From Nocardiopsis alborubida (lineage in GTDB: Bacteria > Actinomycetota > Actinomycetes > Streptosporangiales > Streptosporangiaceae): a DNA stretch of 64,000 nucleotides. The DNA is taken from assembly GCF_012396365.1 (NCBI RefSeq), contig NZ_JAAXPG010000002.1:1-64000 (forward strand), written 5' to 3'. The position numbers and the translations under genes were made by a program. The notes beneath the pieces are model-generated. The model was not told the origin of the DNA, did not search any database, and worked only from the letters and a program-made list of their open reading frames with translations. Positions 11,324 through 59,556 of the stretch are shown here, in pieces. The number at the start of each line of letters is the position of its first letter. Within the stretch, counting starts at the first letter, position 1.

Positions 11324-11327
11324 AGGG

Positions 11328-11401
11328 TGGGCGCGAAGGGACTCGAACCCCTGACCTATTGCTTGTAAGGCAATTGCTCTAACCAACTGAGCTACGCGCC
11401 C
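11328..11401 (-). tRNA. tRNA-Val (anticodon UAC)
   Basis: The minus strand folds as a full cloverleaf: acceptor GGGCGCG/CGCGCCC, D arm GCTC...GAGC with AGTTGGTTA loop, anticodon stem ATTGC/GCAAT with loop CTTACAA (anticodon TAC), and T arm AGGGG-TTCGAGT-CCCTT. The discriminator base is A. CCA is not encoded. Confidence 0.92.
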
Positions 11402-27790: not shown

Positions 27791-27804
27791 TGCGACGGCG
27801 CGGG

Positions 27805-27915
27805 TCAGACGTTGAAGCCCAGCATGCGCAGCTGGTCGCGCCCGTCGTCGGTGATCTTGTCCGGGCCCCACGGCGGCATCCAGACCCAGTTGATCTTGAC
27901 GTCGCGCGCGCTCAA
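27805..27915 (-). pseudogene. 3' end of MIP18-family (DUF59, SufT-like) Fe-S assembly gene, cut by element insertion
   Basis: The minus strand encodes VKINWVWMPPWGPDKITDD followed by GRDQLRMLGFNV and a stop at 27805. This is the conserved C-terminus of the MIP18/PaaD-like metal-sulfur cluster assembly protein of actinobacterial suf operons. Upstream of about residue -35 the frame reads unrelated sequence (YSQVKGMLS) and meets a stop at 27952. The remaining ~75-80 codons and the DUF59 cysteine motif are absent. The break coincides with the change to lower-GC mobile DNA. The 3' fragment is either half of a disrupted gene or the leftover of an att site whose intact copy lies at the far end. Confidence 0.75.
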
Positions 27916-28055
27916 CATGCCTTTTACCTGGCTATACGTGGTGACGGAGATTCAAGGTAGACCAAATACCGCACAGGATCCCGCACAGTGTCCGGAAACG
28001 ATGCGCGGAGTGGTTCGCTCTGGAGATGATGGGTGATCACGGGTGACGGTAGGGC

Positions 28056-41879: not shown

Positions 41880-42437
41880 ATGGCTTACCTCCAGGGCGAA
41901 GGCGCGATGACCAACATCAACCTCATCGTCAAGACCCACTTCAACAACGTCACCAAGAACGGCAAGAGCCAGTTCCTCGACGCCATGGTCGACCACAGGG
42001 ACCCTCGTGGCCCCGGCCAGACCAACCTCCACCTGGTCTCACGGAGGCAGGAGCACAACGGCAAGACCTCCTACAACAACGGCGCGGGCTACTCGATGGA
42101 CCAGTTCGAGAAGATCAAGGCCGCCGCGGGGCCCAACACCGAGCCCGTGACCAACAAGGACGGCGAACAGATCGGTGAGGCCTTCGCGGTCAAGGCCAGC
42201 GTCATGCCCGCCAAGGACGGCCTGATCATCAACACCAACAAAAGGATCGACCAGTCCGACTTCAAGATGGAGCCGAACACCCTCGACATGCAGTTCGAGT
42301 CGATGAAGGCGGCCAAGAAGGCCCGCCAGGCCGAGAAGACCGCCGAGGCCGAGCAGGCGCAGACCGCCCAGCCCGAAGCGTTCCCGGCCCACGCGGCCGA
42401 GGCGCAGGCCGCAGAGCCGGAGCCCTCGATCGGCTGA
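41880..42437 (+). CDS. Unknown protein, possibly single-strand-DNA-binding-like
   Basis: A 185-residue protein from ATG at 41880 after GAGAGGA. Residues 1-125 look globular (MTNINLIVKTHFNNVTKNGK, VKASVMPAKDGLIINTNKRI). The last 50 residues are Ala/Glu/Gln-rich and disordered. It has its own promoter and a hairpin downstream, suggesting high expression. Small stand-alone genes next to a relaxase often encode ssDNA-binding or relaxosome proteins, but no such motif is certain here. Confidence 0.5.
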   Translation: MAYLQGEGAMTNINLIVKTHFNNVTKNGKSQFLDAMVDHRDPRGPGQTNLHLVSRRQEHNGKTSYNNGAGYSMDQFEKIKAAAGPNTEPVTNKDGEQIGEAFAVKASVMPAKDGLIINTNKRIDQSDFKMEPNTLDMQFESMKAAKKARQAEKTAEAEQAQTAQPEAFPAHAAEAQAAEPEPSIG

Positions 42438-43907: not shown

Positions 43908-45677
43908 ATGTTCAACGACGAGAGGCTCAATGCGGCCTACCCGACTCTGTCGAAGCTGTCGGACCCGCTCAAGCCGGCCGGGCGCGAGATCGTCGGCCGC
44001 AAACGGGAGCAGATGCAGGTCATGGCGGGAATGGCGCGGCCCGAGTTGTCGAACGTGCTACTGCTGGCTGAGGCCGGCACGGGCAAGACCGCGCTCGTCC
44101 AGGCGGTGTCGGTCCAGGATTCGCAGCGCCGCTACCTCGAAGTCGACCCCGCGCGGATGATCGCCGAGGCAGGCGACGGACAGCAGATGGCCGCCCTGCT
44201 CAAGCGCTTCTTCGACGAGGCTGAGGAGTTCCACCGGGTCGAACAGGAAGAGCTCGTGCTCTTCGTCGACGAGTTCCACCAGATCATCCAGCTCTCCGAC
44301 GCCGCGACCGAGGCGATCAAACCGGTGCTGGCGGCCTCGGGCACGCGCGGGATTCGGATCATCGCCGCGACGACTTATGAGGAGTTCCACAAGCACATCT
44401 CGTCGAATCAGCCGCTCGTCGAGCGCCTCCAGCGCATCAACCTCTCCCAACCGGAGCGGGCGACGACAGTCGAGATCCTCAAGGGGATGGCCGGGCACTA
44501 CGAGGTCGCCGACCAGTTCTACGACGACCACATCTTCCAGCAGATCTACGAGTACACCCAGCGCTACATCCCGGCCAGCTCTCAGCCGCGCAAGTCGATC
44601 CTCGTGCTCGACTCGATGGTCGGCTGGCACCGGATCACCGGCCGGGCCATGGACCGTGAACTGCTGGCCGACGTGATCATGGAGTCGACGGGCAACAACG
44701 TCGACGTCCGCGTCGACGGGGCGAGGATCAAGGCCGAGCTCGACAAGCGGGTGTTTAGCCAGGACCTCGCCACGAGCATGCTCGCCCGTCGCCTGCAGCT
44801 GTCGGTGGCCGATCTCAATGACAAGAGCAAACCGAGAGCTTCCTTTGTATTCACTGGGAGTACAGGCACTGGCAAGACGGAAACGGTCAAGCAGCTGGCG
44901 AACCTCATCTTCGGTGACGACGAGCGACACCTCATCCGGTTCGACATGACCGAGTACGCGAGCGAGGAGTCCTACGCGCTATTCCGCTCGGAGCTGACGA
45001 AGCGGGTGTGGGACCGGCCCTACTCCGTGCTGCTCTTCGACGAGATCGAGAAGGCAAACTCGATCGTCACGCGTATCCTGCTCCAGGTCCTCGACGACGG
45101 TCGGCTCTCCGACGACAACAACCGGACAGTGAGCTTCCTCAACACCTACATCGTGCTCACCACCAACGCAGGCTCCGAGATCTACAAGACGATCGCCAAC
45201 TACGCCTCCTCTGATACCGGCTCCGGCGAGAACCTTGTCGAGTATCAGAAGCTCATCCGGCGCTCCATCTCGCAGACGACCGGGGGCAACCGTTTCCCAC
45301 CCGAGCTGCTGGGCCGCATTGACGCGATCGTGCCCTTCCAGCCGCTGTCGGAAGAGACCCAGAAGAAGATCGTCGCTGGCAAGCTGCGCGGGGTCGTCCA
45401 GGAAGTCGCCATCAAGCACAACGTGCGGGTCGACGTCTCCAAGAAGGTGTTGCAATACCTCGTCGAAGACAAAGGCGAGTCGGACTCCGACGCCGGCGGC
45501 GCGCGCGCCGCGGTCGCCAAGCTCACCGACGAGGTGACCACCAGCATCGCGACGTTCATCAACGAGCACCCGGCCGAACGACGGGTGCGGGTCGAGGTCG
45601 CAGGGAAGCTTGTCAGCGACAACAAGCGCCTGCTCAAGTCCGACGCGCGCATCATCGTCAGCGCCCACCGAGGCTGA
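43908..45677 (+). CDS. Clp/Hsp100-derived double AAA+ ATPase without pore loops
   Basis: A 589-residue protein with two AAA+ modules arranged as in ClpA/ClpB. Module 1 has Walker A AGTGKT (56-61), LFVDEFHQII and AATTYEEFHKHI. Module 2 has GSTGTGKT (317-324), LLFDEIEKAN, LLQVLDDGRLSDDN and LTTNAGSE. There is no N-domain or M-domain. The KYRG-type pore loop of module 1 and the GYVG pore loop of module 2 are both missing; FDMTEYASEESYALFRSEL runs straight into RPYSVLLFDEIE. It is probably a remodelling or transfer motor, not a threading unfoldase. Confidence 0.8.
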   Translation: MFNDERLNAAYPTLSKLSDPLKPAGREIVGRKREQMQVMAGMARPELSNVLLLAEAGTGKTALVQAVSVQDSQRRYLEVDPARMIAEAGDGQQMAALLKRFFDEAEEFHRVEQEELVLFVDEFHQIIQLSDAATEAIKPVLAASGTRGIRIIAATTYEEFHKHISSNQPLVERLQRINLSQPERATTVEILKGMAGHYEVADQFYDDHIFQQIYEYTQRYIPASSQPRKSILVLDSMVGWHRITGRAMDRELLADVIMESTGNNVDVRVDGARIKAELDKRVFSQDLATSMLARRLQLSVADLNDKSKPRASFVFTGSTGTGKTETVKQLANLIFGDDERHLIRFDMTEYASEESYALFRSELTKRVWDRPYSVLLFDEIEKANSIVTRILLQVLDDGRLSDDNNRTVSFLNTYIVLTTNAGSEIYKTIANYASSDTGSGENLVEYQKLIRRSISQTTGGNRFPPELLGRIDAIVPFQPLSEETQKKIVAGKLRGVVQEVAIKHNVRVDVSKKVLQYLVEDKGESDSDAGGARAAVAKLTDEVTTSIATFINEHPAERRVRVEVAGKLVSDNKRLLKSDARIIVSAHRG

Positions 45678-45713: not shown

Positions 45714-45789
45714 CGAACGACTGGCGCGAACGGTAGGATGTGAATAAACCAGTCAAACTGCGTTTCATCCAGTGAAGGGGTCGACATCC

Positions 45790-47847
45790 ATGGCCAATCC
45801 AGGCATGACGGAGGCCAGTCGCAAGAAAGTGCGCAAGAAGAAGCCGGACGAGCTGTTGTCCTCGGTCGTACATGAGACCGCGACGGCGGGGGCCGTGGAC
45901 CTGCTCAAGAAGAACGAGAGGTTCGTCTTCCCCTCCGGGAGCGCTTGGGTGATGCTCGGCCTGGCCTCTGAGGCCGTCGGCGGGCTCAATCGCCGTCAAA
46001 GTCGGCACGAGGCCAAAGGTTCGATCATCAAGCTCATCGAGAACGATGAGATAGAGACGGTCGCCACCGCAGAGATGCTCGCCGAAGAGGTCTTCGGCAT
46101 CATTCCCACCGCCTCAACGCTCGATCGGATGGACGAGTACTCGCTGCTCACAGAAGCTGAGTACTCCTGGGCCGTGGTCTGGGAGACCGTCGAGGGGGAC
46201 CTGCACGTCGAGTTCGTCGGCAAGGCGACCTTCCCCCAGACGCAGCAGGTCGCCGCTGGCACCCTCAGCCTCGAACAGGCGGTGGGACGGCAGGCCTGGG
46301 CCGACCACTCGGGGCTGTCGGGCGCCAACTCCGCCGATGCCGCGGCCTCTGATCCGACGCAGGCGACGAACGGTGACGAAATCTTCGCTCCGCTGGACGA
46401 GGACGACTCCCCCACTGACGACGATGATGAGCCGGTCTTCGATGACCTGGCCGCCGATGAGGAGCCCGACTTCGAGGCCCCCGAGCCGGAACCGATAAGT
46501 GAGCCCGCACCGGCCTCCGAAGCCCTTGTGGCGACGGAGCACCCCGGGGACGAGGGCTTCGGCATCGACGAGATCGACGAAGACGCCGCCGTGGATGAGC
46601 CGATGCCCGCCGAGGCAGTTGAGGGCGTCTACGCCGACGACCAGGAGACCGTCCGCGACGGCCTGGCTCGGCGCTTCCTGCCCGAGGACCTGGATCTGGG
46701 CATCCGACTCGACGAGTTCAACCACACGTTCTCGATCGGCGCTCCGGCCGTCCAGATCGAGGTGCCCGAGGGCGCGAGCGAGTGGCTGGGCGACCAGGTC
46801 GCCCAGCTCAGCCGGCAGGCCAACGCCGACCTGGCCGGTCTGCGCTATCAGCACGAGGACGAACTGCGGGCTCTCTACGTCAATCTCATGTCCACACACA
46901 TCGAGCAGGTCATCCGCGCGGTGGCCACCGATCGCGAGGACAGCCGCTACAAGCAGCTCATGGACAGCATCGAGGCCAAACAGGCCGAGAGGGTCTCGGA
47001 GAGGGACGAGAAGGTCCGCAAGGCCAAGACCCGGATCGTCACCGCCTACGAGGAGCACGTGAAGGTGCTCGCGGAGAAGGCCGCGAAGGACGCCGAGGCC
47101 CACTACCGGGAGCGTAACAAGTCCCGGGTCGAGAGGGATCAAGCTGATGCGGTCGTCGAGATCGATCGGGAGATGAGCAATGCTCACACCCATGATCTGC
47201 AGGAGATCCTGCGGATCCGGCGCAACGACGCCAGCCTCAAGCTCCAGGTCGGCCAGACTCAGATCTTCAAGGTGCTCGCCGAGCGGCAGAGCGAGAACCT
47301 CGCTGCCGAGCAGGAGCGTCTGGACCGCTGGAAGGACGAGATCGGCCGGATCGTCGCAGATTACCGGGGCGATGACATCGCCCGGACCGAGGCCCTGACC
47401 GAGCAGCTGGCGCGTACCGACGAGCTGGCTGCGGCCCGCTCCGAGTACGCCGCCGCGCTCGAGGCCCAGCGAGCCGAGCACGCCGATCGGATTCGCCGGA
47501 CCGAGGACGAGCTCGACCTCGTCCGCCAGGCGGCGGTCACGAGGATCAAGGAGCGCGACGCCGAGTGGGACAAGGACTTGTCGGTGGAGCGGACCAAGAC
47601 CGAGACGCTGACCAAGCTGGTCCAGGACCTGCGCGAGGAGAACGCGGTGATCGAGACCCGCGCCGCGGAGTTCGCCGACCGTCGTCTGCAAGCAGTCATG
47701 GCCGATCGGGACGCCGCTGACAAGAATCTCGAGCGCTTCGCGGTGCTTCAGCGGCACGCGAGCTGGCTCATCCTGAGCATCATCGTCGGCGGCGTGATCC
47801 TCGGCCTGGGGGTCGGATTCATCGCAGGGACGCTCGTGACCACCTGA
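45790..47847 (+). CDS. Tail-anchored coiled-coil protein
   Basis: A 685-residue protein. ATG at 45790 is chosen because GAAGGGG lies 9 nt before it. The N-terminal 165 residues look globular. Residues ~190-280 are very acidic and disordered. Residues ~330-655 are a long charged coiled coil (KQAERVSERDEKVRKAKTRI and similar). The last ~25 residues form one membrane helix (ASWLILSIIVGGVILGLGVG). It is anchored by its C-terminus with the bulk in the cytoplasm, next to the VirD4 gene, so a spacer or docking role is plausible. No known family. Confidence 0.6.
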   Translation: MANPGMTEASRKKVRKKKPDELLSSVVHETATAGAVDLLKKNERFVFPSGSAWVMLGLASEAVGGLNRRQSRHEAKGSIIKLIENDEIETVATAEMLAEEVFGIIPTASTLDRMDEYSLLTEAEYSWAVVWETVEGDLHVEFVGKATFPQTQQVAAGTLSLEQAVGRQAWADHSGLSGANSADAAASDPTQATNGDEIFAPLDEDDSPTDDDDEPVFDDLAADEEPDFEAPEPEPISEPAPASEALVATEHPGDEGFGIDEIDEDAAVDEPMPAEAVEGVYADDQETVRDGLARRFLPEDLDLGIRLDEFNHTFSIGAPAVQIEVPEGASEWLGDQVAQLSRQANADLAGLRYQHEDELRALYVNLMSTHIEQVIRAVATDREDSRYKQLMDSIEAKQAERVSERDEKVRKAKTRIVTAYEEHVKVLAEKAAKDAEAHYRERNKSRVERDQADAVVEIDREMSNAHTHDLQEILRIRRNDASLKLQVGQTQIFKVLAERQSENLAAEQERLDRWKDEIGRIVADYRGDDIARTEALTEQLARTDELAAARSEYAAALEAQRAEHADRIRRTEDELDLVRQAAVTRIKERDAEWDKDLSVERTKTETLTKLVQDLREENAVIETRAAEFADRRLQAVMADRDAADKNLERFAVLQRHASWLILSIIVGGVILGLGVGFIAGTLVTT

Positions 47848-47961: not shown

Positions 47962-50900
47962 ATGGGACTGAAAGCAGTGCGGGCCAAGCGGCCCACCGCT
48001 TCCACCTGGGACAAGATCAGGGCGAGGCGGCCGGACGAGACGCTAGGCAACAGGGACGTACACGGTGACCAGCAGCTCGACCGGTCGACGCTGGGCACCC
48101 GGCGCTCGCGCATCCCGGGATTCATCGGAGCGGCCATCACCGGCGCCGCCGTCTTCGCGGCGGCCTGGTTGCTCTACTCAATCCTGGCCACCCTGTTCAT
48201 CGGCGTCTCCGGCGCCCTGGGCGCGGTCAGCATAGGCGCTCCGGCCGAGCAGCCCTACTACGTCAAGACCCAGGTCAGCGAGGGCGGAAAGTCGGTGACC
48301 TGCTACAAGCAGACCGACCAGGCCGGGTTACCGGCTCCTGGCGGGAAGTGCTACGGCAGCGCCGAAGAGGTGCCAAAGCCGGACTGGTACCAGGGCGAGT
48401 CCGAGACGAGGGGCACCGACGAGCCAGCGAGGACGACCATCAGCGCTCAGCTGGCAACCGTGACCGGCTTCAAGCTGTTCATGACGGTGGGCACGGGATT
48501 GATCGTGGCCCTGGTCATCTCGACTCTGGTGACCCGACGGGTCAGCGCCGAAAATCTCATGCACAACACCGACGACATCAATCAGCACCAGAACGACCAG
48601 CACATTGCGCTGCCCGAAGAGATCATGGAGAAGTTCGACTACTTCCCTGACGCTGGTGCGCACTCGGCTGTGCAGGTCTCGTCAGTCATCAGCCACACCA
48701 TGCTCAAGAAGAAGGGCCTGGGTAGCGTCGATCTCATCGAGCGGGCCGAGGCCGACATCATCGACGAGGACGGCGAGATCCTCTATTACGCCGGTGACCC
48801 CCTTGAGGACGCCGACGGCAACGTCATGACCCGGACCGTCCCACTCATCGACGAAGACTTCGGCGAGGCCCTGTTCGAAGCATCCGGCGTCCCCGACGTC
48901 AAGGGCGGCGACGGCAAGCCGCTGCGGAAGCGTTTCGACACCACCGCCATCCCGTACAACCCGGACGGCAAGGCGCAGGAGAAACTCGGGAAATACAGGA
49001 CCGTCGCCGACCTCATCAAGAACGACTGGACGTTCCCCGACTACGAGGTCCAGCGCCCGGCCGGGGCCTATATTGTCGACACCGCTCCGGTGAACACCAT
49101 GGTCCTGGCGATCACCCGAGGTGGCAAGGGCCAAACGATCATCGAGCCGACCCTGGACATGTGGAGCCGGGAGAAGCGGCCGTCGAACATGATCATCAAC
49201 GACCCCAAGGGCGAGCTGCTGGTCAAGAACTACGTGCCCTTCGTCATGCGCGGGTTCGAGCCGGTCCAGTTCAACCTCATCAACCCGGTGAAGACGAACA
49301 TCTACAACCCGCTGGGCATGGCCGCCGACGCCGCCCGAGAGGGTGACTCGACCAAGTGCGCCCAGTACGTGGAGAACATCGGCGACGTCTTCTTCCCCGT
49401 CTCCGGCGGGGAGGACCCGGTGTGGCCCAAGGCTGCCGGAAACTCATTCAAACGCGCGGCCTACGGCCTCATCGACGTTTACATGGAGGAGGAGCGAGAG
49501 CTGCGCGAGTTCGCTATGGCCGCCGACATGCCCCCGGAGGTCCTCGAGCAGCGCCTCGACGAGATGTGGGGCAAGGTCACGCTCTACAACTGCTACCAGA
49601 TGTTCGTCCAGCTGACGTCGAAGAAGATGAAGAACCCGGAGGCCGAGCTCGAGAAGCGGGTGAAGAAGGGCGAGTTCGACAACGACGAGGAGGGCCTGCA
49701 GGCCGAACAGCGCCGGGTCGAGGCGCAGTCGCCGCTGTGGGAGGGCAAGCCCGAGCAGGACATGCTCACGCTGTACTTCAACGCCACCGCGGCCCTGCCG
49801 ACCAACACGGTGCGCACCCTCATCGGCAACGCCGACAACGCGCTGCGCGCGATGGCCGGAGCCGAGAAGATGATCGCGAGCGTCTACGGCATCGCCCTGA
49901 CCGCGATGTCGTTCTTCTCCGACCCGACGATCTCGCGTCTGACCTCGGGTAGGCCGTCGCAGACGACTGACTTCGGCAGTCTGTCCTTCCCGCGACGGAT
50001 GGGCGTGCGGTTCTCGCAGAACTACCTCAAGCGCGACAACCTCATGCGCGAGATGCTGGCGAAGTGGTCGGCCTATTCCGATCCAATGTTCTCCGAGTCG
50101 CTGGGCAAGGACTTCGACCATCAGGACGTCGTCACCCCTGAGGGCTGGGCCCGGTACTACTTCGAGGGAAAGTTCCCCACTGACGAGGCCTGGGTCAAGC
50201 TCGAGCTCGTCGACGCCCAGAAGCAGATGCTGGTGCGCACCTTCTACTTCCACTTCAAGAAGAGCTACCAGCTCTCGCTCAACGGTCGGCACTTCGTCAA
50301 GGAGCAGGTCACCGGCGAGAAGATCGTCAAGGACGGCGTCATCCGCGAGCTGCGCCCGGTGCGTGAGGGCGGTAAGGCCGACGGGACGATCCTGTCGTTC
50401 GAGCCGTCGAACACGACGTACCCGCAGGACAAGCTCAATCTGGCCGACTCGGTCGTACCCGAGCGGGTCCAGGGCAGGGCGCGGGCAATCCAGCAGACGA
50501 TGGTGCGGTACTCGGAGAAGACCAAGGCGGTGTTCCTGGTGACGCCGCCGCACCTGACCAAGTACGCCCAGATCGTGCTCATCCTCATCAAGCAGCTCGT
50601 CGACCTCAACTTCGACAAGAGCTACATGACCAAGAGCAACCAGAAGCCGTTGTACAAGACCCGGTTCATGCTCGACGAGCTCGGCAACCTGTCCAGCGAC
50701 GGCGAGGGCATCCAGAGCTTCCAGACGATGCTGTCCATCGGACTCGGCCAAGAGCAGCAGTTCACGCTCATCCTTCAGACCCTGCAGCAGCTGCGCGACG
50801 TCTACGGGGACTCCGTGGACAAGATCGTCCAGGGCAACACCTCGAACATCATCTTCCTCAAGTCGACCGACGACTCGATGCTCGAGACCCTGGAGAAGAT

Positions 50901-52002
50901 GAGCGGCAAGACTCATCGGGTCTATCGCGACTCCAAGCAGATCACGCAGGACATGAACAAGATCATCGGCGGCAAGACGCAGGGGGCCGTGTCGTACACG
51001 ATGAGCGCGCAGGAGGAGCCGCTCATCAAGTTCAACGACATGTACTTCATCCCCGAGCGCAACAGCATCGTCTTCCGCGCCGGCGACGCGCCGGTGTGGA
51101 ACCGCAACGAGACGATCCTGCCGATGAGCTGGCGTCTGTTCGAGAACACGATCCGTCACGCTGGCCACGACGAGTACACGTTGCAGACGATCCCGACCCT
51201 GTCGACGGCTGTCGACTTCGACGTCAAGCTCAATCAGCCAGACTTCAAGAAGTTGCTCGACAAGCGGATCGCCCAGGCGATGTGGGCCAGTGAGGCCAAG
51301 CAGCAGTACCAGGACGCCTACGGCTATGAGGACATCGAGATCGCCCGGCTCGACCCCGACCTCTACGCCGATGAGGTCATGGAGATCATCCGTGGCCTGG
51401 CGGCCAAGGACGAGGGTCTGGACCCCGATGCGGCGGTGATGATGGACCCGGACGACTACGAAGCCTCGATCATGATCGACGATGACCAGTTCATCGAGAA
51501 CGTCGAGCTGGCGGCCGAGGTCCACGATCTCGAGGCCGACGAGTCCAGGCGCGAGGAGCGCATCTACGCCGAGGGGCTGGTGAGCAAGGAGATGCTCGTC
51601 CACCGCAACGGCGTGGCCAAGCTCAAGACGCTCGACGTGCCGCTAGCCGAGGCCTACAAGCACGTGATGCTCGAGATGCAGCATGACGATGAGCACTTCT
51701 CGGTCGGCGGCGACGGAGAGCTGCGCAGCGCCGACGGGTCGGTGGCCTACATCTCGCCGGTGCGCTCGGCGACGTACTCCGACGCGGCCCAGCGGATCAA
51801 CCGTCACCTCGACGGCGAGGGCTCCAGGGCCTTCGCCGAGCAGGAGCTGACCGAGGAAGACCTGCGCAGCCTGGCGACGGTGAAGATCCACGCGGCCTTC
51901 TACCAGTACCTCGCTTCGCTGGAGTCGTGGGAGGTGCTCGCCGAGGGGGAATTCGATCGGGCTATGGCCGTCGAGATGCGCCAGGAGACCCATCGGGCGT
52001 AG
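47962..52002 (+). CDS. VirD4/TraG-type conjugative coupling protein
   Basis: A 1346-residue protein with two N-terminal membrane helices: near residues 53-85 (FIGAAITGAAVFAAAWLLYS) and ~170-193. The VirD4 P-loop is TRGGKGQT (385-392), followed by NMIINDPKGELLVKN. Walker B is FMLDELGNL (905-906 DE), followed by LGQEQQFTLILQTLQQL. It fits the VirD4-like family of Gram-positive conjugative elements, but is much longer, with an insertion between the Walker motifs and a ~300-residue acidic C-terminus. It brings the relaxase-DNA complex to the channel. A strong terminator follows. Confidence 0.88.
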   Translation: MGLKAVRAKRPTASTWDKIRARRPDETLGNRDVHGDQQLDRSTLGTRRSRIPGFIGAAITGAAVFAAAWLLYSILATLFIGVSGALGAVSIGAPAEQPYYVKTQVSEGGKSVTCYKQTDQAGLPAPGGKCYGSAEEVPKPDWYQGESETRGTDEPARTTISAQLATVTGFKLFMTVGTGLIVALVISTLVTRRVSAENLMHNTDDINQHQNDQHIALPEEIMEKFDYFPDAGAHSAVQVSSVISHTMLKKKGLGSVDLIERAEADIIDEDGEILYYAGDPLEDADGNVMTRTVPLIDEDFGEALFEASGVPDVKGGDGKPLRKRFDTTAIPYNPDGKAQEKLGKYRTVADLIKNDWTFPDYEVQRPAGAYIVDTAPVNTMVLAITRGGKGQTIIEPTLDMWSREKRPSNMIINDPKGELLVKNYVPFVMRGFEPVQFNLINPVKTNIYNPLGMAADAAREGDSTKCAQYVENIGDVFFPVSGGEDPVWPKAAGNSFKRAAYGLIDVYMEEERELREFAMAADMPPEVLEQRLDEMWGKVTLYNCYQMFVQLTSKKMKNPEAELEKRVKKGEFDNDEEGLQAEQRRVEAQSPLWEGKPEQDMLTLYFNATAALPTNTVRTLIGNADNALRAMAGAEKMIASVYGIALTAMSFFSDPTISRLTSGRPSQTTDFGSLSFPRRMGVRFSQNYLKRDNLMREMLAKWSAYSDPMFSESLGKDFDHQDVVTPEGWARYYFEGKFPTDEAWVKLELVDAQKQMLVRTFYFHFKKSYQLSLNGRHFVKEQVTGEKIVKDGVIRELRPVREGGKADGTILSFEPSNTTYPQDKLNLADSVVPERVQGRARAIQQTMVRYSEKTKAVFLVTPPHLTKYAQIVLILIKQLVDLNFDKSYMTKSNQKPLYKTRFMLDELGNLSSDGEGIQSFQTMLSIGLGQEQQFTLILQTLQQLRDVYGDSVDKIVQGNTSNIIFLKSTDDSMLETLEKMSGKTHRVYRDSKQITQDMNKIIGGKTQGAVSYTMSAQEEPLIKFNDMYFIPERNSIVFRAGDAPVWNRNETILPMSWRLFENTIRHAGHDEYTLQTIPTLSTAVDFDVKLNQPDFKKLLDKRIAQAMWASEAKQQYQDAYGYEDIEIARLDPDLYADEVMEIIRGLAAKDEGLDPDAAVMMDPDDYEASIMIDDDQFIENVELAAEVHDLEADESRREERIYAEGLVSKEMLVHRNGVAKLKTLDVPLAEAYKHVMLEMQHDDEHFSVGGDGELRSADGSVAYISPVRSATYSDAAQRINRHLDGEGSRAFAEQELTEEDLRSLATVKIHAAFYQYLASLESWEVLAEGEFDRAMAVEMRQETHRA

Positions 52003-52018: not shown

Positions 52019-52053
52019 GGACGCCCCCGGCCTGGATGCGGCCGGGGGCGTCC
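52019..52053 (+). terminator. Terminator between the coupling protein and RNA polymerase genes
   Basis: GGACGCCCCCGGCC (52019-52032) pairs perfectly with GGCCGGGGGCGTCC (52040-52053), followed by GGTCGTTTCT. It insulates the RNA polymerase gene from the upstream operon. Confidence 0.8.
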
Positions 52054-52126: not shown

Positions 52127-52166
52127 TTGATAATGATCAGTCGAATGGACTATACATGATCATGTA
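52127..52166 (+). promoter_or_regulatory. RNA polymerase gene promoter with perfect palindrome
   Basis: TTGATA (52127-52132) and TATACA (52151-52156) are 18 bp apart. TACATGATCATGTA (52153-52166) is a perfect 14-bp palindrome overlapping the -10 and expected start point. CCAATGATTGATAATGATC covers the -35. The ATG at 52194 follows AGGAGG at 52181. The arrangement suggests tight repression. Confidence 0.6.
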
Positions 52167-52193: not shown

Positions 52194-55100
52194 ATGAAGA
52201 GCGCGCACGGCCTGCGGAGGTACTTCTACGAATACGTCCTCCACCAGGCCATCGACCGCGCCCGCGAGCAGACGTCGGAGATCGTGCCGATCTCCCAGGC
52301 CAGAGCCATCCGGGCCCGGGTCGACGGGATTCTCTCCGGGCTCCCGGCGATCCCCGAGGCCAAAGGGCTTCCAGCGACAGCACAGCGCCTGGCCCATCCC
52401 AAGCTGGGCATCCGGGACTGCCTGAGCGCCATCGACCAGGCTCTGGGCGAGTCGGTGCGCGACTACGAGCCCCAGTTCGGCGACCACTCCGCGGCCGACG
52501 AGCGCTACCGAGCGCTGCAGCGGGACTTCAGCCGGGCCACTGGCGTCGGCGGCGAGACGAACCCAAAGTCGGCGCGGCTGCCGATTAGCCCCTACGACCC
52601 CGAGTGGGCCGAGCGGGCGACGATCAAGCGTGGGGGCACCGCGCTGTCCTACCTGCCCGACGGGGCCGTGGCGAAGATGACCGGCGGCGAGGTCGACCGG
52701 GTCGCGGCCCCGCAGCACGGCAACGCGATGCTGTGGCGCATCGACGACGGCAAGGCCGTCGAGGCCGGTCGGGCGATGACCTATGACGACGCCTCGGGGC
52801 TGACCGCCCTCATGGACAAAATGAGCGAGGCCGAGTACAACCAGGTCCGCGGCTGGGTCCTCGACGGCGGGCGGGACCCGCGCACCGGGCGCATCGACCG
52901 CAACCGCTTCATGTCCCAGGCCGCCGTGGCCCGCTCGGTGGCCGTGCTCGACGAGCTCAAGGCCCAGGGCACGGCCTACGAGGTCGTCCGCGACATCAAC
53001 CCCGGCCAGATCAAGGCCGTCCTGGTGGACACGGGCCTGGAGATCCGCCTCACCGAGCCCCGGGAATCTGAGTCCTTCGCCGGGGCCCGCATCTACGACA
53101 ACGGTCTGGTCTCGCGCTACAGCACCAACCACTCGGTCAACGGCAGCGTGGCCCTGTACTCGGCGAGCCCCGACGAGGCCGTCGCCCTGCTGCGCTTCGC
53201 TCAGGGGCGGCCCGTCGAGCGCAGAGACGTCCCGGGAGCGATCGCCGGGGTGCTGGGCACCACGCACACGGAATCGAGCCGCTCGGGCCCCGTCGAGGTC
53301 CCCGACGCCTACTACACCGACAAGGAGTCGATGTTCGTCGTCGACGACTACGCGCGCGGCGCAGGTTCGAAGGTCCTACTTCGGCGGGAGAGCACCTCGC
53401 GGACGTTGCCGACCTACTTTGTCGATGCCGCGGCGGCCGAGGCCTTCGGCCAGGCGGCCGTGGAGTCGGCGCGGGCGAACCTGCAGTCGGCCCTCGATGT
53501 CGAGGGCATCATTGACTCATTCCACGCCCAACGCTGGCAAGGCCTCAACCTCGTCGAGTTCGAACCCCCGGAGTACTCGGCTGACGCCGAAGTCGCCGCG
53601 ATCCAGCGCTCCTACTGGGACGTGCTCACCGGCGATCGGGCCTGGCTGCTGCGGCCGGGAGCGACCGAGGAGATGTACGCCGAGAGGCTGGAAGCCATCG
53701 GCGAGTCCGCCGAAGCGGGCCTGGGCAACCTCGTCTACGGTGGCTCGCCCGAGGAGATCATCCGCGACCACGCGGCCGACGTGCCCTTCGAGGTCATCGG
53801 CACCTGGGAGGCCGAAACCCACCAGATCGACGGCGAGTGGGTCGACCAGCGCTTCGACCCGGGCCGCGTGGCCAGGTACATGACCAGCTCGGTCGGCCAG
53901 TGGTCGAACCTTGACGACCTCGCCGCGGCGCTGCGCCGGGCCGAGGTCGATCCGGCGGAGATGATGGGCACCGGCTTCCAGACCACGCGGTTCAAGGACC
54001 GGCTGGTCCGATTCGACGCCCAGACGGCCGTGCCGATCGAGACCCACCCGTCGGAGTTCATTCAGCGCGTCGGCACAACCATCTACGACTCGCTGGCCCG
54101 CTCGGGCACCGCGCCCGGCCCGATCCTCATCGACGACAAGGGCGTGGTCTCCTACACCGCCGAGAAGCAGCGCCGCGGCGGGTCGCGGGTGCCGGTATCC
54201 GGTCAGATCGGGCAGGTCTTCGACGTCGGCGACCACGGCGAGATCGTCACGCGGTTCGCGTCCGGCGAGAACGCGCTCATCGTGCCTGGCTACCAGGCGC
54301 GGATTCGGGCCCAGCCGCCAGGGCAGCGGCCGACCTCAGTCGAGGAGCGTACGGTACTGCGCGGCTACGAGCAGCTCGTCCACGAGCGCATCGCCCACCA
54401 GATCGCCGGTGACCTCGTGGCCACCCGGAGCGAGGTCGGCGAGCCGGCGAGTCTCAACGGTGTCTACTCCCAGCTCTACGGCACCAAGTACCCAACCGAC
54501 TTCATCGAGCGGGCCACCGAGCTGAGCATCGATCCCGCCACCGGTGAGGTCAGCTCCCGCCTGGACCCGTGGGTCGAGACGATTCTGTCGACCGAGGCGA
54601 AGCGGATCCGCTACAGCAACGAGGTCAAGGCCGGCTCGACCATCTACGCCGAATACCGGGCCGGGCGGGACCGCACCGACCCGGCCGACGACAACCGTTT
54701 CGAAGCCTGGGCGCTGACCGGCGGGCGGAACATGACGGTGCTCACCGGCACCGATGCTAACCGCGTCCCTGCACCGGAGGGCTACTTCGACCCCGTGATG
54801 ACCGGCGGGGCGACCAACCAGGGCATCGTCCGTTACCTCACAACCGACGCCGAGGTCTCCCCCGACGGCTCGATCGTGCCCGGCGACCCGAAGACCCTCA
54901 CCGGTGCCCGCGCCCCACTCATGACCCGGTCCGAGCTGGAGACTTTGGACTACGACCCTTTCGACCGCCAGCAGATGACGGCCTCGACGATCATGCAGTC
55001 GTCGAAGGTGACCGAACCGGCGGGGACGGCGATGATGACCTTCGGCGGCTGGACGGCCGACGACCCCATCGTCGTGTCCAAGGAGTTCGCCACGGCCCAC

Positions 55101-57779
55101 CAGATCCGCGGCGCCGAAGGGCAGCTGCGCGACCTCGTCGTCGGCGACAAGCTCTCCGACCTGCACGGCAACAAGGGCGTGGTCTCGCTCATCATCGAGC
55201 GGTCGATGAGTATCGAGGACGCCGAGGCACAGGGCATCGCCGAGGAGGTCGCGTGGTTCCGCGAGAACCCGCAGATGGACGTGGTGATGAGCCCGTTCTC
55301 GCTGATCTCGCGCCGCAACGCAGGATCGGCCCGGGAGCTCATGGCCGGCGACGTCGAGACGCTGATGGCTCCGGCGATGCGCGGGAAGGAGCTCAGCGAG
55401 CTCTCGAGCACTGCGGCCGCGGCTGGTGTCGGCCGGATGCGCTTCGTGGTCACCCACATGGCCGTCGACGAAAAAACCAAGATCTACGACGACGAGGCGA
55501 TCCAGGCCGGACGCGGCCGAAAGGCCTCGAGTCAGCTCGCATGGGCGCTGGGGTCGAAGGGTGGCTGCCCGGCGATCATGCGGGAGTTCTACGGGCACAA
55601 CACCGGCCCGGAGTCGAACGTGCGCGAGTACCTGCGGGTCGCCGGTCTCGATATGGACCCCGACGGAGCGCTGCGGGTAGTCGGCCAAGCCGAGCCCCGC
55701 GGGGGGTCGCCGGCGCGCCGGTTCATCCCGATGCCTGAGCTCGTCCGCACAAAGCCAGGCAGGTCGACCCGGACGCCAGGGCTGAACACCACAGCGATGC
55801 GCAAGTCCTTCGGCGACCTCATCGGTGACCGCGGGGGCGACCTCGAGCTGCCCTTCGCCCTGACCTTCCCCACCGGTGAGCAGATCGAGCCGGCCTCGGC
55901 GACCAGCTGGAAGCTGCCCGTGCTCTCCTCGCACCTGCGCAGCGGCCAGGAGTTCGATGACGGGACCTCGGTGATGCACGACTACACCCGGTCCTACCAG
56001 GAGGTCTTCGTCGAGTCCTGCCGGTATCGGTTCATGCAGGAGAAGCTCGCGAACGAGCGGCTCACCGACGACAAGCGCTCGAAGCTGCTGGCGGATATGT
56101 TGACGACCGTCCAGCGGGCCCAGCGTTCCTTCGAGGCGGTCACCGCCGACGTGACCTCGCGGGTGCTCACCGGCAAGAACAACGCCTTCAAGACCGGACT
56201 GATGGCCTCGCGGCTGTCAGACTCAGCCACGATGGTGTGGACGGCCGACCCCAGACTGGACATCGACCAGGTGGCGCTGTCGCCGGACAAGGCGGCCCGG
56301 CTCGGCCTCGAAGAGGGCGACCACGCCCTGGTCTGGCGCGACCCTATCCTGCGCGACTCGGGCGTGCGCTACATGCGTGTGACCCTCGACGAGCGGCTCA
56401 CCGGCGCGGCGATCAACCCGGTGATGGACAAGTGCTTCGACGGCGACTTCGACGGCGACGCAGTAGCCGTGGTCAAGCTCCATTCGCAGGCGGCCAAGGA
56501 CGAGGCGATGGCCAAGTTCTCGGTGCCGGCGAACCTGCTCGACACCGGCGTCGTCGGCCCTGATGGGACGCACCCGCTGACGGCACACGTCGCGCTCGAC
56601 ACCCAAGTCGCGGTGTCGAAAGATCCAGAGCTGGCCAAGGAGTTCGACAGCCTGAGGTCGGAAGCGAACCTGCTGCTGGCCGCCGAGCGCGACGGCGAGT
56701 CGGTCGAGTCGATCGCCGCCCGCCGCCTCGGCGTCACCAAACAGCTCTCCAACCTCTACCGCAGTGCCCAGTCACGCGAGTTCGGCTCGGCCCTGGACTT
56801 CTCCAGCGCCTACAACCATGTCGAGAGCCTCAAGGCCGTCTGCGTCGACACCGGGGCTAAGGGCAGCCTCAGAAAACTGGCCTCTTACGCCGAGAAGCTC
56901 GGCCTGCAGGTCGACGATGCCGGTGACTGGCACGACGTCGACCACAAGAAGCCAGGTATCACGAAGGCCGACCAGGAGGCGTCGATGTTCGCCACGGCGA
57001 TCAAGGCCCACGGCACCGGCCTCGGCGGCTCCTACAGCCAGCGGGCAGTGCGCGCGCTGCGGGGGAAGGACCTCAAGGCCGTCCTCGAGATCACCTACCC
57101 GGTGACGCAGTCGATCCTCCAAGCCAAGCACGACGCGGCCGAGGCTCGGCACAAGTACGCGATGCTCCAGGGCCCGGGACGCGATCTGTGGCGGGGTCGG
57201 AAACTCGAGCACGTCGGCGTTGGACAGTGGAAGCCCGAATTCGTCGAGGGCGAGCCGGTGCAGGCGAGCACCGCGGAGTGGGCCGAACAGTTCCAGGCCT
57301 TCTACGAAGCCCCCGACGGCTTCAACGTGCGGGTCAACCCCGCGTACGTCCATCGGGTGGCCGAGGCCCTCACCGACCCGGACACGGGCCTGGTGCGCAA
57401 CCTCGAGGAAGATAAGTCGCTGGTGGGCACCGTCATGGACCGCATGGCCTACGGCGGTGACTTCGAGACCCTCGTGGCCGCGGCCGAGGCCCGGGAGAAC
57501 GTCTACGACGGGCCCGGCAACGAGCTGTTCGCCCCGGCCCCCACGGCTCGAGCGCGGACCCGGTCGACCGAAGTCGAGACGGGTGTCGAAGCCACGACAG
57601 TGGAGACGGCCGTGCTCAAGCGCGACGTGCTCGCCGACGGCGTCGACCAGGCGCGCACGCGCCAAGTGAATCAGCGCTCGGCCCAGGCTGTAGTTGTCGG
57701 CGGCCGCCCGGAGTACACGCCCTCGATCAACATCGAGCAGCCCGTGGCAGGCGGGCATGACGAAGGAATGGGGCTGTGA
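52194..57779 (+). CDS. Single-chain beta-beta' RNA polymerase encoded by the element
   Basis: A 1861-residue protein with both catalytic halves of multisubunit RNA polymerase in one chain. Beta-like core: DYDPFDRQQMTASTIMQ (compare EHDDANRALMGSNMQ), TFGGWTADDPIVVSKEF near 950, GDKLSDLHGNKG at 984-995 with catalytic lysines K986 and K994, and MDVVMSPFSLISRRNAG near 1028. Beta'-like core: WKLPVLSSHLR near 1239, ALVWRDPILRDSGVR near 1378, DFDGD at 1418-1422 with all three metal-binding aspartates, a bridge-helix-like DTGAKGSLRKLASYAEKLGL near 1552, and a trigger-loop-like GTGLGGSYSQRAVRAL near 1607. The first ~850 residues are not recognised. Active-site residues are intact, so it is predicted to synthesise RNA. 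Confidence 0.88.
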   Translation: MKSAHGLRRYFYEYVLHQAIDRAREQTSEIVPISQARAIRARVDGILSGLPAIPEAKGLPATAQRLAHPKLGIRDCLSAIDQALGESVRDYEPQFGDHSAADERYRALQRDFSRATGVGGETNPKSARLPISPYDPEWAERATIKRGGTALSYLPDGAVAKMTGGEVDRVAAPQHGNAMLWRIDDGKAVEAGRAMTYDDASGLTALMDKMSEAEYNQVRGWVLDGGRDPRTGRIDRNRFMSQAAVARSVAVLDELKAQGTAYEVVRDINPGQIKAVLVDTGLEIRLTEPRESESFAGARIYDNGLVSRYSTNHSVNGSVALYSASPDEAVALLRFAQGRPVERRDVPGAIAGVLGTTHTESSRSGPVEVPDAYYTDKESMFVVDDYARGAGSKVLLRRESTSRTLPTYFVDAAAAEAFGQAAVESARANLQSALDVEGIIDSFHAQRWQGLNLVEFEPPEYSADAEVAAIQRSYWDVLTGDRAWLLRPGATEEMYAERLEAIGESAEAGLGNLVYGGSPEEIIRDHAADVPFEVIGTWEAETHQIDGEWVDQRFDPGRVARYMTSSVGQWSNLDDLAAALRRAEVDPAEMMGTGFQTTRFKDRLVRFDAQTAVPIETHPSEFIQRVGTTIYDSLARSGTAPGPILIDDKGVVSYTAEKQRRGGSRVPVSGQIGQVFDVGDHGEIVTRFASGENALIVPGYQARIRAQPPGQRPTSVEERTVLRGYEQLVHERIAHQIAGDLVATRSEVGEPASLNGVYSQLYGTKYPTDFIERATELSIDPATGEVSSRLDPWVETILSTEAKRIRYSNEVKAGSTIYAEYRAGRDRTDPADDNRFEAWALTGGRNMTVLTGTDANRVPAPEGYFDPVMTGGATNQGIVRYLTTDAEVSPDGSIVPGDPKTLTGARAPLMTRSELETLDYDPFDRQQMTASTIMQSSKVTEPAGTAMMTFGGWTADDPIVVSKEFATAHQIRGAEGQLRDLVVGDKLSDLHGNKGVVSLIIERSMSIEDAEAQGIAEEVAWFRENPQMDVVMSPFSLISRRNAGSARELMAGDVETLMAPAMRGKELSELSSTAAAAGVGRMRFVVTHMAVDEKTKIYDDEAIQAGRGRKASSQLAWALGSKGGCPAIMREFYGHNTGPESNVREYLRVAGLDMDPDGALRVVGQAEPRGGSPARRFIPMPELVRTKPGRSTRTPGLNTTAMRKSFGDLIGDRGGDLELPFALTFPTGEQIEPASATSWKLPVLSSHLRSGQEFDDGTSVMHDYTRSYQEVFVESCRYRFMQEKLANERLTDDKRSKLLADMLTTVQRAQRSFEAVTADVTSRVLTGKNNAFKTGLMASRLSDSATMVWTADPRLDIDQVALSPDKAARLGLEEGDHALVWRDPILRDSGVRYMRVTLDERLTGAAINPVMDKCFDGDFDGDAVAVVKLHSQAAKDEAMAKFSVPANLLDTGVVGPDGTHPLTAHVALDTQVAVSKDPELAKEFDSLRSEANLLLAAERDGESVESIAARRLGVTKQLSNLYRSAQSREFGSALDFSSAYNHVESLKAVCVDTGAKGSLRKLASYAEKLGLQVDDAGDWHDVDHKKPGITKADQEASMFATAIKAHGTGLGGSYSQRAVRALRGKDLKAVLEITYPVTQSILQAKHDAAEARHKYAMLQGPGRDLWRGRKLEHVGVGQWKPEFVEGEPVQASTAEWAEQFQAFYEAPDGFNVRVNPAYVHRVAEALTDPDTGLVRNLEEDKSLVGTVMDRMAYGGDFETLVAAAEARENVYDGPGNELFAPAPTARARTRSTEVETGVEATTVETAVLKRDVLADGVDQARTRQVNQRSAQAVVVGGRPEYTPSINIEQPVAGGHDEGMGL

Positions 57780-57780
57780 C

Positions 57781-59556
57781 ATGAGCGAGCGCAAGCGCCT
57801 GGGAGACGTGGAGACGGTGCCAGTGGGCCGCACGCCCATGGCCGTAGACGGGCAGGGGCAGATCGACGCCGACGAGTGGACGGCCGAGAGGGCCAGGGCG
57901 CAGCCGCCCCTGGAGACCGGGGCGGGCTACCCACCGTGGCCGAGGCCGGCCGAAGAGGAGCCGATCGACGCCGAGTTCACCGAGGAGCGGCCGACGACCC
58001 GGCAGAGGGCCCGCCGCGCGTGGGAGGAGAGCAGGAGGAAGGCGCGAGAGTTCTTCAGCGAGAGCGTGCAGGCCACGATCGTCGATCACGAGGAGCAGCG
58101 GGCCAGGGACGAGGAACGGGCGGCGACCGACGACCCGGAGGCGAGCAAGCGCGCGCAGCTGCTCAAGCTGCGCAGCGAGGCGAGGCTGGCTGGCGAGGAG
58201 TACCTCGACTCGCTCAGGCGCTCGCAGATCTTCGTGCCCGGCTTCACGGAGGAGAAGGCGGCCAAGCGGCTCGACGCCATGCACCAGGTCTACGTGCAGA
58301 TGATGGTGCAGGGCTGCCTGCGCCCGCTCTCGCGCGGGGTCAATACCAACTCGATCATCCAGGCCGTGGGGATGATGACGTCGATGACGCTGCTGTCGGA
58401 GGACTTCCGCGAGCAGACCCGCCCGCACCTCGACCGGCTCAGGGAGAAGATCCAGGACCGCATCGACACCAAGACCCGCTCGAGAGTCGGCGCGGTCGAG
58501 AAGGGTATCGAGCGCCGCCGGGACTTCTTCAGCGGGGTCGTTGACGAGGAGAAGAGGGCACGACTGGTCGGCTCGACCGATGCGCGCGCTCAGCTGTCGA
58601 GGAAGTGGCGCAAGCGCTATGACGACCTGCTCTATCGTGAGCGCGGCCGGCGGCAGCTCTACACTCCGGAGGCGGCGGCGCTGACGGAGCTGGGTCTGAT
58701 GGAGAACGCCTTCGTCCAGATGCGGGACCCGGCGACGGAATCGCAGGAGGTCTACGAGTCCTACAAGAAGCTGCGCTCGCATCTGTGGGCCCAGTTCGAG
58801 GACGACGGCCTCGAGCGCCAGGACATCGTCGATCGGGTCAAGACGATGGTTGGGGTACGGATGGAGCACGAGCCGGAGCTCTGGACGATGATCAAGGGCG
58901 CCGCCCATGGACGGATCATCAAGGACTACCGCATCGATGGGGTCACCGGGGCCCGGGAGGAGCAGTGGCGCGGGCATTGGGCGAACCACATCGGGGCCAG
59001 AATGCCGCGCGAGGCGACCTTCTCCCTGCGCCCGCCGATGACGCACGATGAGCACAGCTCGGCGATCACCGAGACGATGCGGATCTCGTTCGCCGACGCG
59101 GTGGGCAAGGACATGAAGGACGGCAGGGCCGACGGCAAGCGTTTTCGGGAGATGGCCATCGGGTACATGGCTGGCTTTGCCGGACGCAGGCAGGGCATGG
59201 ACCTGCGCGGGGCCCCCGCCGGCGTGCGCATGGCCGTCGAGCAATCCGGGGTGATGATGGCGACGATGACCGTCGACGGCGTCGAGCCCGAGGCCCAGCG
59301 GGCGGCGTACTCGATGGCCTACGCCAACGCCATGGACGAGGTCGCCGAGCAGTGCCCGGAGGTCAAGGACCTCATGCACGAGCAGTTCGGCCCCGACTGG
59401 AAGGCGGTGCTCAAGGACGCCGCAGACAACCCGCAGGCCTTCCTTATCGCCATGAAGGCGAAACCGCGACGGTACTACGCCGGGGCCGACGGGGGCCCGG
59501 CGTATGAGTCGGCCCGGGACTACGACGCCGCTCATGAGAATCCCCAGCCGGTCTGA
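57781..59556 (+). CDS. Unknown protein coupled to the RNA polymerase gene
   Basis: A 591-residue soluble protein whose ATG lies 1 nt after the polymerase stop, so the two are probably translated together. The N-terminal ~110 residues are charged and disordered. From ~130 on it is mostly helical (RLDAMHQVYVQMMVQGCLRP, IIQAVGMMTSMTLLSEDF, FADAVGKDMKDGRADGKRF). No helix-turn-helix of sigma type is evident, but position makes it the first candidate for a specificity or assembly factor of the polymerase. No known family recognised. Confidence 0.6.
   Translation: MSERKRLGDVETVPVGRTPMAVDGQGQIDADEWTAERARAQPPLETGAGYPPWPRPAEEEPIDAEFTEERPTTRQRARRAWEESRRKAREFFSESVQATIVDHEEQRARDEERAATDDPEASKRAQLLKLRSEARLAGEEYLDSLRRSQIFVPGFTEEKAAKRLDAMHQVYVQMMVQGCLRPLSRGVNTNSIIQAVGMMTSMTLLSEDFREQTRPHLDRLREKIQDRIDTKTRSRVGAVEKGIERRRDFFSGVVDEEKRARLVGSTDARAQLSRKWRKRYDDLLYRERGRRQLYTPEAAALTELGLMENAFVQMRDPATESQEVYESYKKLRSHLWAQFEDDGLERQDIVDRVKTMVGVRMEHEPELWTMIKGAAHGRIIKDYRIDGVTGAREEQWRGHWANHIGARMPREATFSLRPPMTHDEHSSAITETMRISFADAVGKDMKDGRADGKRFREMAIGYMAGFAGRRQGMDLRGAPAGVRMAVEQSGVMMATMTVDGVEPEAQRAAYSMAYANAMDEVAEQCPEVKDLMHEQFGPDWKAVLKDAADNPQAFLIAMKAKPRRYYAGADGGPAYESARDYDAAHENPQPV

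Follow-up and report, generated by a model that had tools for sequence, protein, structure and literature searches.

A predicted fused beta-beta' RNA polymerase encoded in the MobL/VirD4 gene cassette of an integrative element of Nocardiopsis alborubida

Introduction

The common view is that plasmids and integrative elements rely on the RNA polymerase of their host. MOBL conjugation modules, known in the pLS20 and pCP13 types, carry a MobL relaxase and a VirD4 protein. Some elements fold single-stranded DNA into promoters that the host enzyme can read (PMC11541004, available part). RNA polymerases of mobile elements nevertheless exist. Phages and fungal plasmids have single-chain two-barrel enzymes, listed in the accessible text of PMC7281927, and NCgl1702-like RNA polymerases of mobile elements are named in PMC7824862. 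According to excerpts of PMC10770324, the virion polymerase gp96 of phage P23-45 (PDB 8h2n) is a single-chain two-barrel enzyme with a DFDGD motif that is fused to the tail tape measure and is thought to act as the phage DNA enters. YonO of SPbeta, as described in the available section of PMC5467207, is a single-chain, element-borne, two-barrel enzyme that shares few residues with cellular enzymes.

Here we analyze the window, a stretch of 64,000 nucleotides from Nocardiopsis alborubida (positions 1 to 64,000 of contig NZ_JAAXPG010000002.1, assembly GCF_012396365.1), in which an initial annotation had pointed out a fused polymerase gene beside genes for a MobL relaxase and a VirD4 protein. Compared with the NCgl1702-like enzymes, of which Iyer and Aravind reportedly gave a fuller description in 2012 and which we know by description only, this polymerase is alike in being a single chain with two barrels, encoded on a mobile element and apparently devoid of the SBHM (flap) insert; it differs by its link to a MobL/VirD4 cassette, which the literature searched does not state for them. 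It shares the single chain, the two barrels and the DFDGD motif with gp96, but is a separate protein in a relaxase/VirD4 cassette and resembles cellular beta and beta' at significant profile scores. The single-chain, two-barrel, element-borne layout of YonO (also compared by description only) is found here as well, although the window family does match beta and beta' profiles. Both halves, their motifs and their order are as in cellular RpoB and RpoC; the halves are, however, fused instead of residing on separate subunits, the flap appears to be absent, and about 620 residues precede the RpoB-like part. Finally, the cassette has the MobL relaxase and the VirD4 protein of the MOBL modules, yet adds a dedicated RNA polymerase and gave no match to the mating ATPase family PF19044.

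Results

A single chain with both halves of cellular RNA polymerase

The polymerase gene (52194-57779, plus strand) begins with ATG and encodes 1861 amino acids in one open frame. We obtained two AlphaFold models of the protein (pLDDT 85.7 and 84.7), which matched RpoC/Rpb1 and RpoB. In the fold search with these models, whose rows span only the two regions named here, residues 620-1096 (54051-55481, plus strand) resembled RpoB and residues from about 1155 to 1720 (55656-57353, plus strand) resembled RpoC/Rpb1. The former would form the first double-psi barrel, without the flap insert, and the latter the second. The initial annotation had described one 1861-residue chain with beta preceding beta' and had suggested structure prediction as a check; its coordinates were correct, and both barrel-bearing halves are present in the predicted models.

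Profile comparisons, likewise suggested there, gave the same picture. Pfam RNA_pol_Rpb2_6 matched the polymerase at 4e-7, over its cut-off, and Rpb1_2 at 9e-4, under its own cut-off. A family profile built from five polymerases (those of the window, Streptomyces, Gordonia, Staphylococcus and Lactococcus) matched Rpb1 at 4e-18, and its alignment by hhalign reached probabilities of 98.4% for beta' (E = 6.4e-15) and 96.7% for beta (E = 3.4e-10), the two matches lying in order along the chain. In a single-sequence search of the PDB with the polymerase, the best match was 8h2n, the phage P23-45 polymerase (4.2e-4), followed by cyanobacterial RpoC1 (4.4e-4). Judged by these sequence comparisons, the likeness of the open reading frame to RNA polymerase is not due to chance. 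From sequence and predicted fold, we hold it to be nearly certain that the gene encodes a single-chain fused beta-beta' polymerase.

The catalytic residues are invariant and the flap appears to be missing

Motifs of the beta side were located at residues 921 (DPFDRQQMTAS), 950 (FGGWTADDPIVVS) and 1029 (DVVMSPFSLISRRN), and motifs of the beta' side at residues 1239 (WKLPVLSSHLR) and 1383 (DPILRDSG); the initial annotation had named such flanking segments, and the motif positions that it stated were correct. The polymerase has both a basic pair in the first barrel and a DxDxD triad in the second. The basic pair lies in GDKLSDLHGNKG (55143-55178, plus strand), with GDK at residues 984-986 contributing K986 and GNKG at residues 992-995 contributing K994; the metal-binding triad is DFDGD at residues 1418-1422 (56445-56459, plus strand).

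We examined these positions in a family alignment of 253 rows, consisting of the window protein, 248 database proteins and four plasmid relatives; 52 proteins (P0136-P0187), mostly subunits of cellular RNA polymerase together with a handful of fused proteins without assignment, were left out of this count. Each lysine was present in 251 of 251 letters (2 gaps in 253 rows), and the three aspartates in 249 of 249, 250 of 250 and 247 of 247 letters (4, 3 and 6 gaps, respectively). Thus none of the five residues that had been singled out as diagnostic (K986, K994, D1418, D1420 and D1422) is substituted in any row. If the protein were a relative without catalytic activity that serves, for example, as a decoy or a platform for binding, such constancy would hardly be expected, nor would the purifying selection seen in comparison with three congeneric relatives (dN/dS of 0.19-0.27). 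We found nothing in favor of this reading and give it next to no credence. The fused polymerase is instead predicted to be active.

The distance between the ED motif and the GDK lysine is 29 residues here (D957-K986) as compared to 151 in a cellular beta (D731-K882). On this spacing, we consider the sigma-binding flap (SBHM) insert to be missing from the beta barrel.

The initial annotation had further named a bridge helix and a trigger-loop-like stretch, and here the outcome was divided. A predicted helix of 32 residues (1591-1622), placed like the bridge helix, precedes TQSILQAKH (1638-1646), a TQ..L..KH motif in a trigger-loop-like helix pair whose spacing is as in the cellular trigger loop TQLTMRTFH (taken from P0137); helix and motif together span 56964-57170 on the plus strand. 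H1646 occurs in 242 of the 247 letters of the family alignment (the others being K, four times, and E, once). Both the spacing of the motif and the predicted helices fit, but residues 1500-1700 alone matched the cellular beta' profile with a probability of 0.4%, which leaves the trigger loop unsupported at the profile level, and in the family-profile match to Rpb1 this stretch appeared as a second piece of -4 bits, below significance. The motif by itself suggests a trigger loop.

The polymerase gene belongs to a cassette with MobL and VirD4

From left to right, the region encodes a cell-wall hydrolase, several proteins of no assigned function, the MobL relaxase, a ClpA/ClpB-like ATPase, a 680-aa protein, the VirD4-like protein, the polymerase and a 591-aa protein, all of the genes placed below lying on the plus strand. 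The hydrolase (31674-34313) combines a tail-tip lysozyme domain (PF18013, 1.4e-31) with a CHAP domain (PF05257, 4.8e-6). MobL (39480-41723) was recognized by PF18555 at 1.1e-90, and by the NCBIfam model MobP2 at 5.1e-14, under its cut-off; it is followed by a 185-aa protein (41880-42437) with 56% identity to its Streptomyces and 29% to its Gordonia counterpart. The ATPase (43908-45677) is a two-domain AAA protein (PF07724, 1.6e-35; TIGR02639, 3.9e-74, under cut-off). The 680-aa protein (45805-47847, with a possible start at 45772) matches no Pfam family, and the VirD4-like coupling protein (47962-52002) matches PF02534 at 1.3e-20 and NF045973 at 2e-43, the latter under the cut-off of that model. 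The gene of the 591-aa protein (57781-59556) starts 1 bp past the polymerase stop; its product also lacks a Pfam family and has relatives in Streptomyces (41%) and Gordonia (23%).

To survey related elements, as the initial annotation had proposed, we used one scan of genome contigs, in which 17 loci were confirmed out of 61 pattern-matching stretches (loci L003-L006 were scored apart). The 680-aa protein, VirD4, the polymerase and the 591-aa protein kept the same order and strand in all 17 loci, with the 680-aa protein before VirD4 and the 591-aa protein after the polymerase each time. The ATPase lay ahead of these four genes in 16 loci, where it was matched in part, at the edge of the locus; in the exception (L016) an ATPase match was found elsewhere, on the opposite strand, and any ATPase further upstream would fall outside the fetched stretch. 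In each of the 17 genomes, MobL shares the strand of the polymerase and precedes the polymerase core by 12.7-17.0 kb. Since all 17 loci are relatives of 52-93% identity, these counts speak for one clade.

MobL is otherwise rare: a sample of 396 genomes from across the phylum contained it once, in the window's own genome. The polymerase occurred in 4 of 40 genomes of the genus and in none of 60 further relatives. Within the genus, all 4 genomes with the polymerase have MobL, and MobL was found in none of the 36 without it (n = 40, which are kin and not independent). The placement of the polymerase beside MobL and VirD4 on a mobile element is supported by these counts, and we are confident that the polymerase is a conserved member of the MobL/VirD4 gene cassette.

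A second AAA protein (641 aa), adjoining a 558-aa protein of no assigned role, is encoded on the minus strand of contig 12 (73708-77466; L002, 13708-17466), in a layout like that of the AAA pair of the cassette.

Farther relatives are found on plasmids

Polymerase relatives were found on a Streptomyces plasmid (66% identity), on Gordonia pGKT2 (37%; L004, 19977-25826) and on Staphylococcus capitis pAYP1020 (27% over 677 residues). On all three, MobL, the ATPase, VirD4 and the polymerase follow one another in the same order, with extra genes between VirD4 and the polymerase in Staphylococcus, where no counterpart of the 680-aa or the 591-aa protein was found. All three have a lysozyme gene nearby, and the Gordonia and Staphylococcus plasmids have a topoisomerase gene there as well. 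The Gordonia module is carried by a plasmid reported to transfer between genera in the laboratory (PMC5640721, available part, citing Jung et al. 2011). On the Streptomyces plasmid, a gene annotated as RNA polymerase alpha subunit (NZ_CP109461.1, 96401-97426; L051, 12402-13427) sits outside the transfer cassette, some 5 kb past its upstream end, where the lysozyme gene lies. A further relative, of 2382 aa and 24% identity, is encoded on Lactococcus cremoris pJM4A (L006, 16959-24107). This plasmid has a counterpart of the ATPase (32% over 552 residues; L059, 3724-5712), but neither tblastn of the fetched pieces nor the annotation revealed MobL or VirD4, which makes it a counter-case to the cassette link.

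We also considered that the element might be a prophage or prophage remnant and the enzyme a phage polymerase. The nearest structure by single-sequence search is indeed the tape-measure polymerase of P23-45, the fold search among viral proteins ranked a phage "minor tail protein" first, and a tail-tip lysozyme family is encoded nearby. Yet MobL and VirD4 are present, and the homologs reside on plasmids: tblastn of the window protein matched 13 of 72,556 plasmid records and none of 50,697 phage records, and tblastn of the Staphylococcus protein matched 25 plasmid records, of which 12 were short matches in Clostridioides, but nothing among phages. Among viral contigs, 46 stretches were matched, with one weak relative (26% over 201 residues), and Terminase_3, the one family searched, was not found in the genome. 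Therefore, we regard a phage origin of this kind as very improbable.

These data also bear on Corynebacterium glutamicum, which we take to be the host of NCgl1702. It was the sole one of 14 control genomes with MobL, and NCgl1702 presumably lies in its CGP3 region. No Corynebacterium name occurred among the best 120 of 408 protein matches, most of which are without names. In the available text of PMC5539076, CGP3 is described as a prophage and carries an actin-like protein; a protein with an MreB/actin-like match is likewise encoded on the window's element. CGP3 may be an element of the window's kind rather than a phage.

The coexistence of the polymerase with a P4-type primase on pGKT2 is relevant to another alternative, namely a primase-like enzyme that makes short RNA primers for the second strand of the entering DNA or for element replication. 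The relaxase and coupling protein nearby would suit such a role; primases are a usual cargo of conjugative elements (PMC5512222, available excerpt), and Frpo is described as a single-strand promoter for both transcription and primer RNA (PMC11541004, available part). However, long cellular-type beta and beta' halves are kept, beyond the need of a primer maker, and since pGKT2 already has its P4-type primase, priming by the polymerase is not obviously needed. We consider this alternative improbable.

The window holds the left end of a large element

A 111-bp direct repeat at 27796-27906 has a copy at 302284-302394 of contig 12, with 108 identical positions. The stretch around the repeat was matched in 40 of the 40 genomes of the genus searched, the intact right-hand copy ends a FeS_assembly_P gene (PF01883, iron-sulfur assembly), and two polymerase-bearing relatives have such a repeat pair about 224 and 246 kb apart. 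Because of the repeats, the gene end and the paired repeats in relatives, we read the window as holding the left end of a repeat-bounded integrative element of about 274 kb. Just inside both ends lies a 25-bp near repeat with 23 identical positions (window 27967-27991; contig 12, 302068-302092), possibly a site for excision proteins.

A 391-aa open reading frame beside the right end, checked as a candidate integrase, had no Pfam or NCBIfam match. A VirB4-type ATPase, searched with the one family PF19044, was not detected in the window genome, so that the element is no more than a candidate for self-transfer. The same element encodes a 427-aa protein with a sub-threshold MreB/actin-like match of 2.3e-4 (contig 12, 110228-111511; L040, 10228-11511). 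The only RNA gene seen was a tRNA-Val (11326-11401). A defence system was considered and rejected: PADLOC has no model for the polymerase, and its AAA neighbor matches several AAA models.

Signals around the polymerase gene

A terminator-like hairpin of 14 pairs, 13 of them G-C, lies between the VirD4 and polymerase genes (52019-52053, plus strand); 11 such hairpins were found in the stretch as compared to 8.3 expected. Alignment of 23 upstream regions revealed a conserved site with a CTATA...ATG core further downstream (52142-52166, plus strand), a possible promoter or operator. CTATA or CTATT was found within 75 bp upstream in 19 of 22 relatives and was absent from L015, L021 and L022. The site is lacking in Plantibacter, and the Gordonia upstream region (L004) could not be aligned. 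As a promoter class used across the element, the site was rejected, since its matrix gave one strong match in 320 kb, its own; the next-best match (15.8) fell inside the reversed-sequence null (15.9), so that contig 12 contains no second site above the null.

In the Staphylococcus plasmid, TGnTATAAT, which resembles the host -10 element, precedes 5 of the 24 gene starts examined, the polymerase gene included. Hence expression of the polymerase by the host enzyme is probably possible.

In the intergenic gaps of the element, the 6-mers with the highest z-scores were AATGAT/ATCATT (21 versus 5.0 expected) and TGATCA (36 versus 12.2), counted on both strands in gaps of contig 12 that lie mostly at positions 29 to 127 kb. 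These words were rejected as polymerase promoters: they are enriched, yet nothing ties them to the polymerase.

It is on such signals that a donor-side alternative has to be weighed, in which a YonO-like late-gene polymerase transcribes element genes, for example those for transfer or maintenance, from private promoters after induction and has no special role in the recipient. This reading has a precedent in YonO of SPbeta (PMC5467207, available section), and it would accommodate the hairpin before the gene, the upstream site of its own and the words enriched in the gaps. The host-like motif at Staphylococcus gene starts and the lack of a second copy of the upstream site above the null in contig 12 speak weakly against it. 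Overall, we view the donor-side alternative as possible but on the unlikely side.

Discussion

Taken together, sequence and models indicate that the fused polymerase is conserved, belongs to a transfer-gene cassette and is probably active. Because the host enzyme probably expresses the polymerase itself, the function that remains for it is to make RNA on element DNA. We therefore favor, with a probability of roughly 0.55, the reading that a flap-less fused polymerase, predicted to be active and a member of the cassette, makes RNA on element DNA at or just after transfer. Three observations favor action at the time of transfer, for which the balance tips slightly in favor: the gene is fixed near the relaxase and the coupling protein, the enzyme appears to be without the flap by which cellular polymerases are bound to sigma, and phages answer the same problem with virion polymerases (PMC10770324, in its accessible part). 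The suggestion in the initial annotation that the element transcribes its own genes or makes primers in the recipient is plausible in this light.

In the mechanism that we propose, the fused enzyme would first be produced in the donor through the host polymerase, which would start at the site ahead of the gene. Having no flap to bind sigma, the fused enzyme would pick its start sites alone or with the co-encoded 591-aa protein. It would then transcribe, and may thereby prime, element DNA in the new cell. Passage through the channel with the DNA, perhaps after unfolding by the ClpA/B-like ATPase, would be a further guess, and we find delivery of the polymerase to the recipient doubtful. In the available excerpt of PMC5512222, N4-type polymerases appear among transferred proteins for phages only. 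In the literature searched, which did not cover the surveys of 2010 and 2012 (Ruprich-Robert and Thuriaux; Iyer and Aravind), we found no RNA polymerase tied to conjugation; as these surveys lie outside it, the link may already be in print.

In Actinomycetota and Staphylococcus, the retention of a cellular-type polymerase beside a relaxase and a coupling protein suggests another way of solving the problem of early expression. A flap-less fused beta-beta' enzyme would also provide a means to ask what the cellular machine can do without. In a bolder and rather unlikely version, these elements would send their own polymerase to the recipient or rebuild it there at once, so that neither the host enzyme nor its sigma factors would be needed to read and prime the incoming strand. 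If true, such a private transcriptase would correspond, in conjugation, to the virion polymerases delivered by phages, and an element could be expressed at once in distant hosts.
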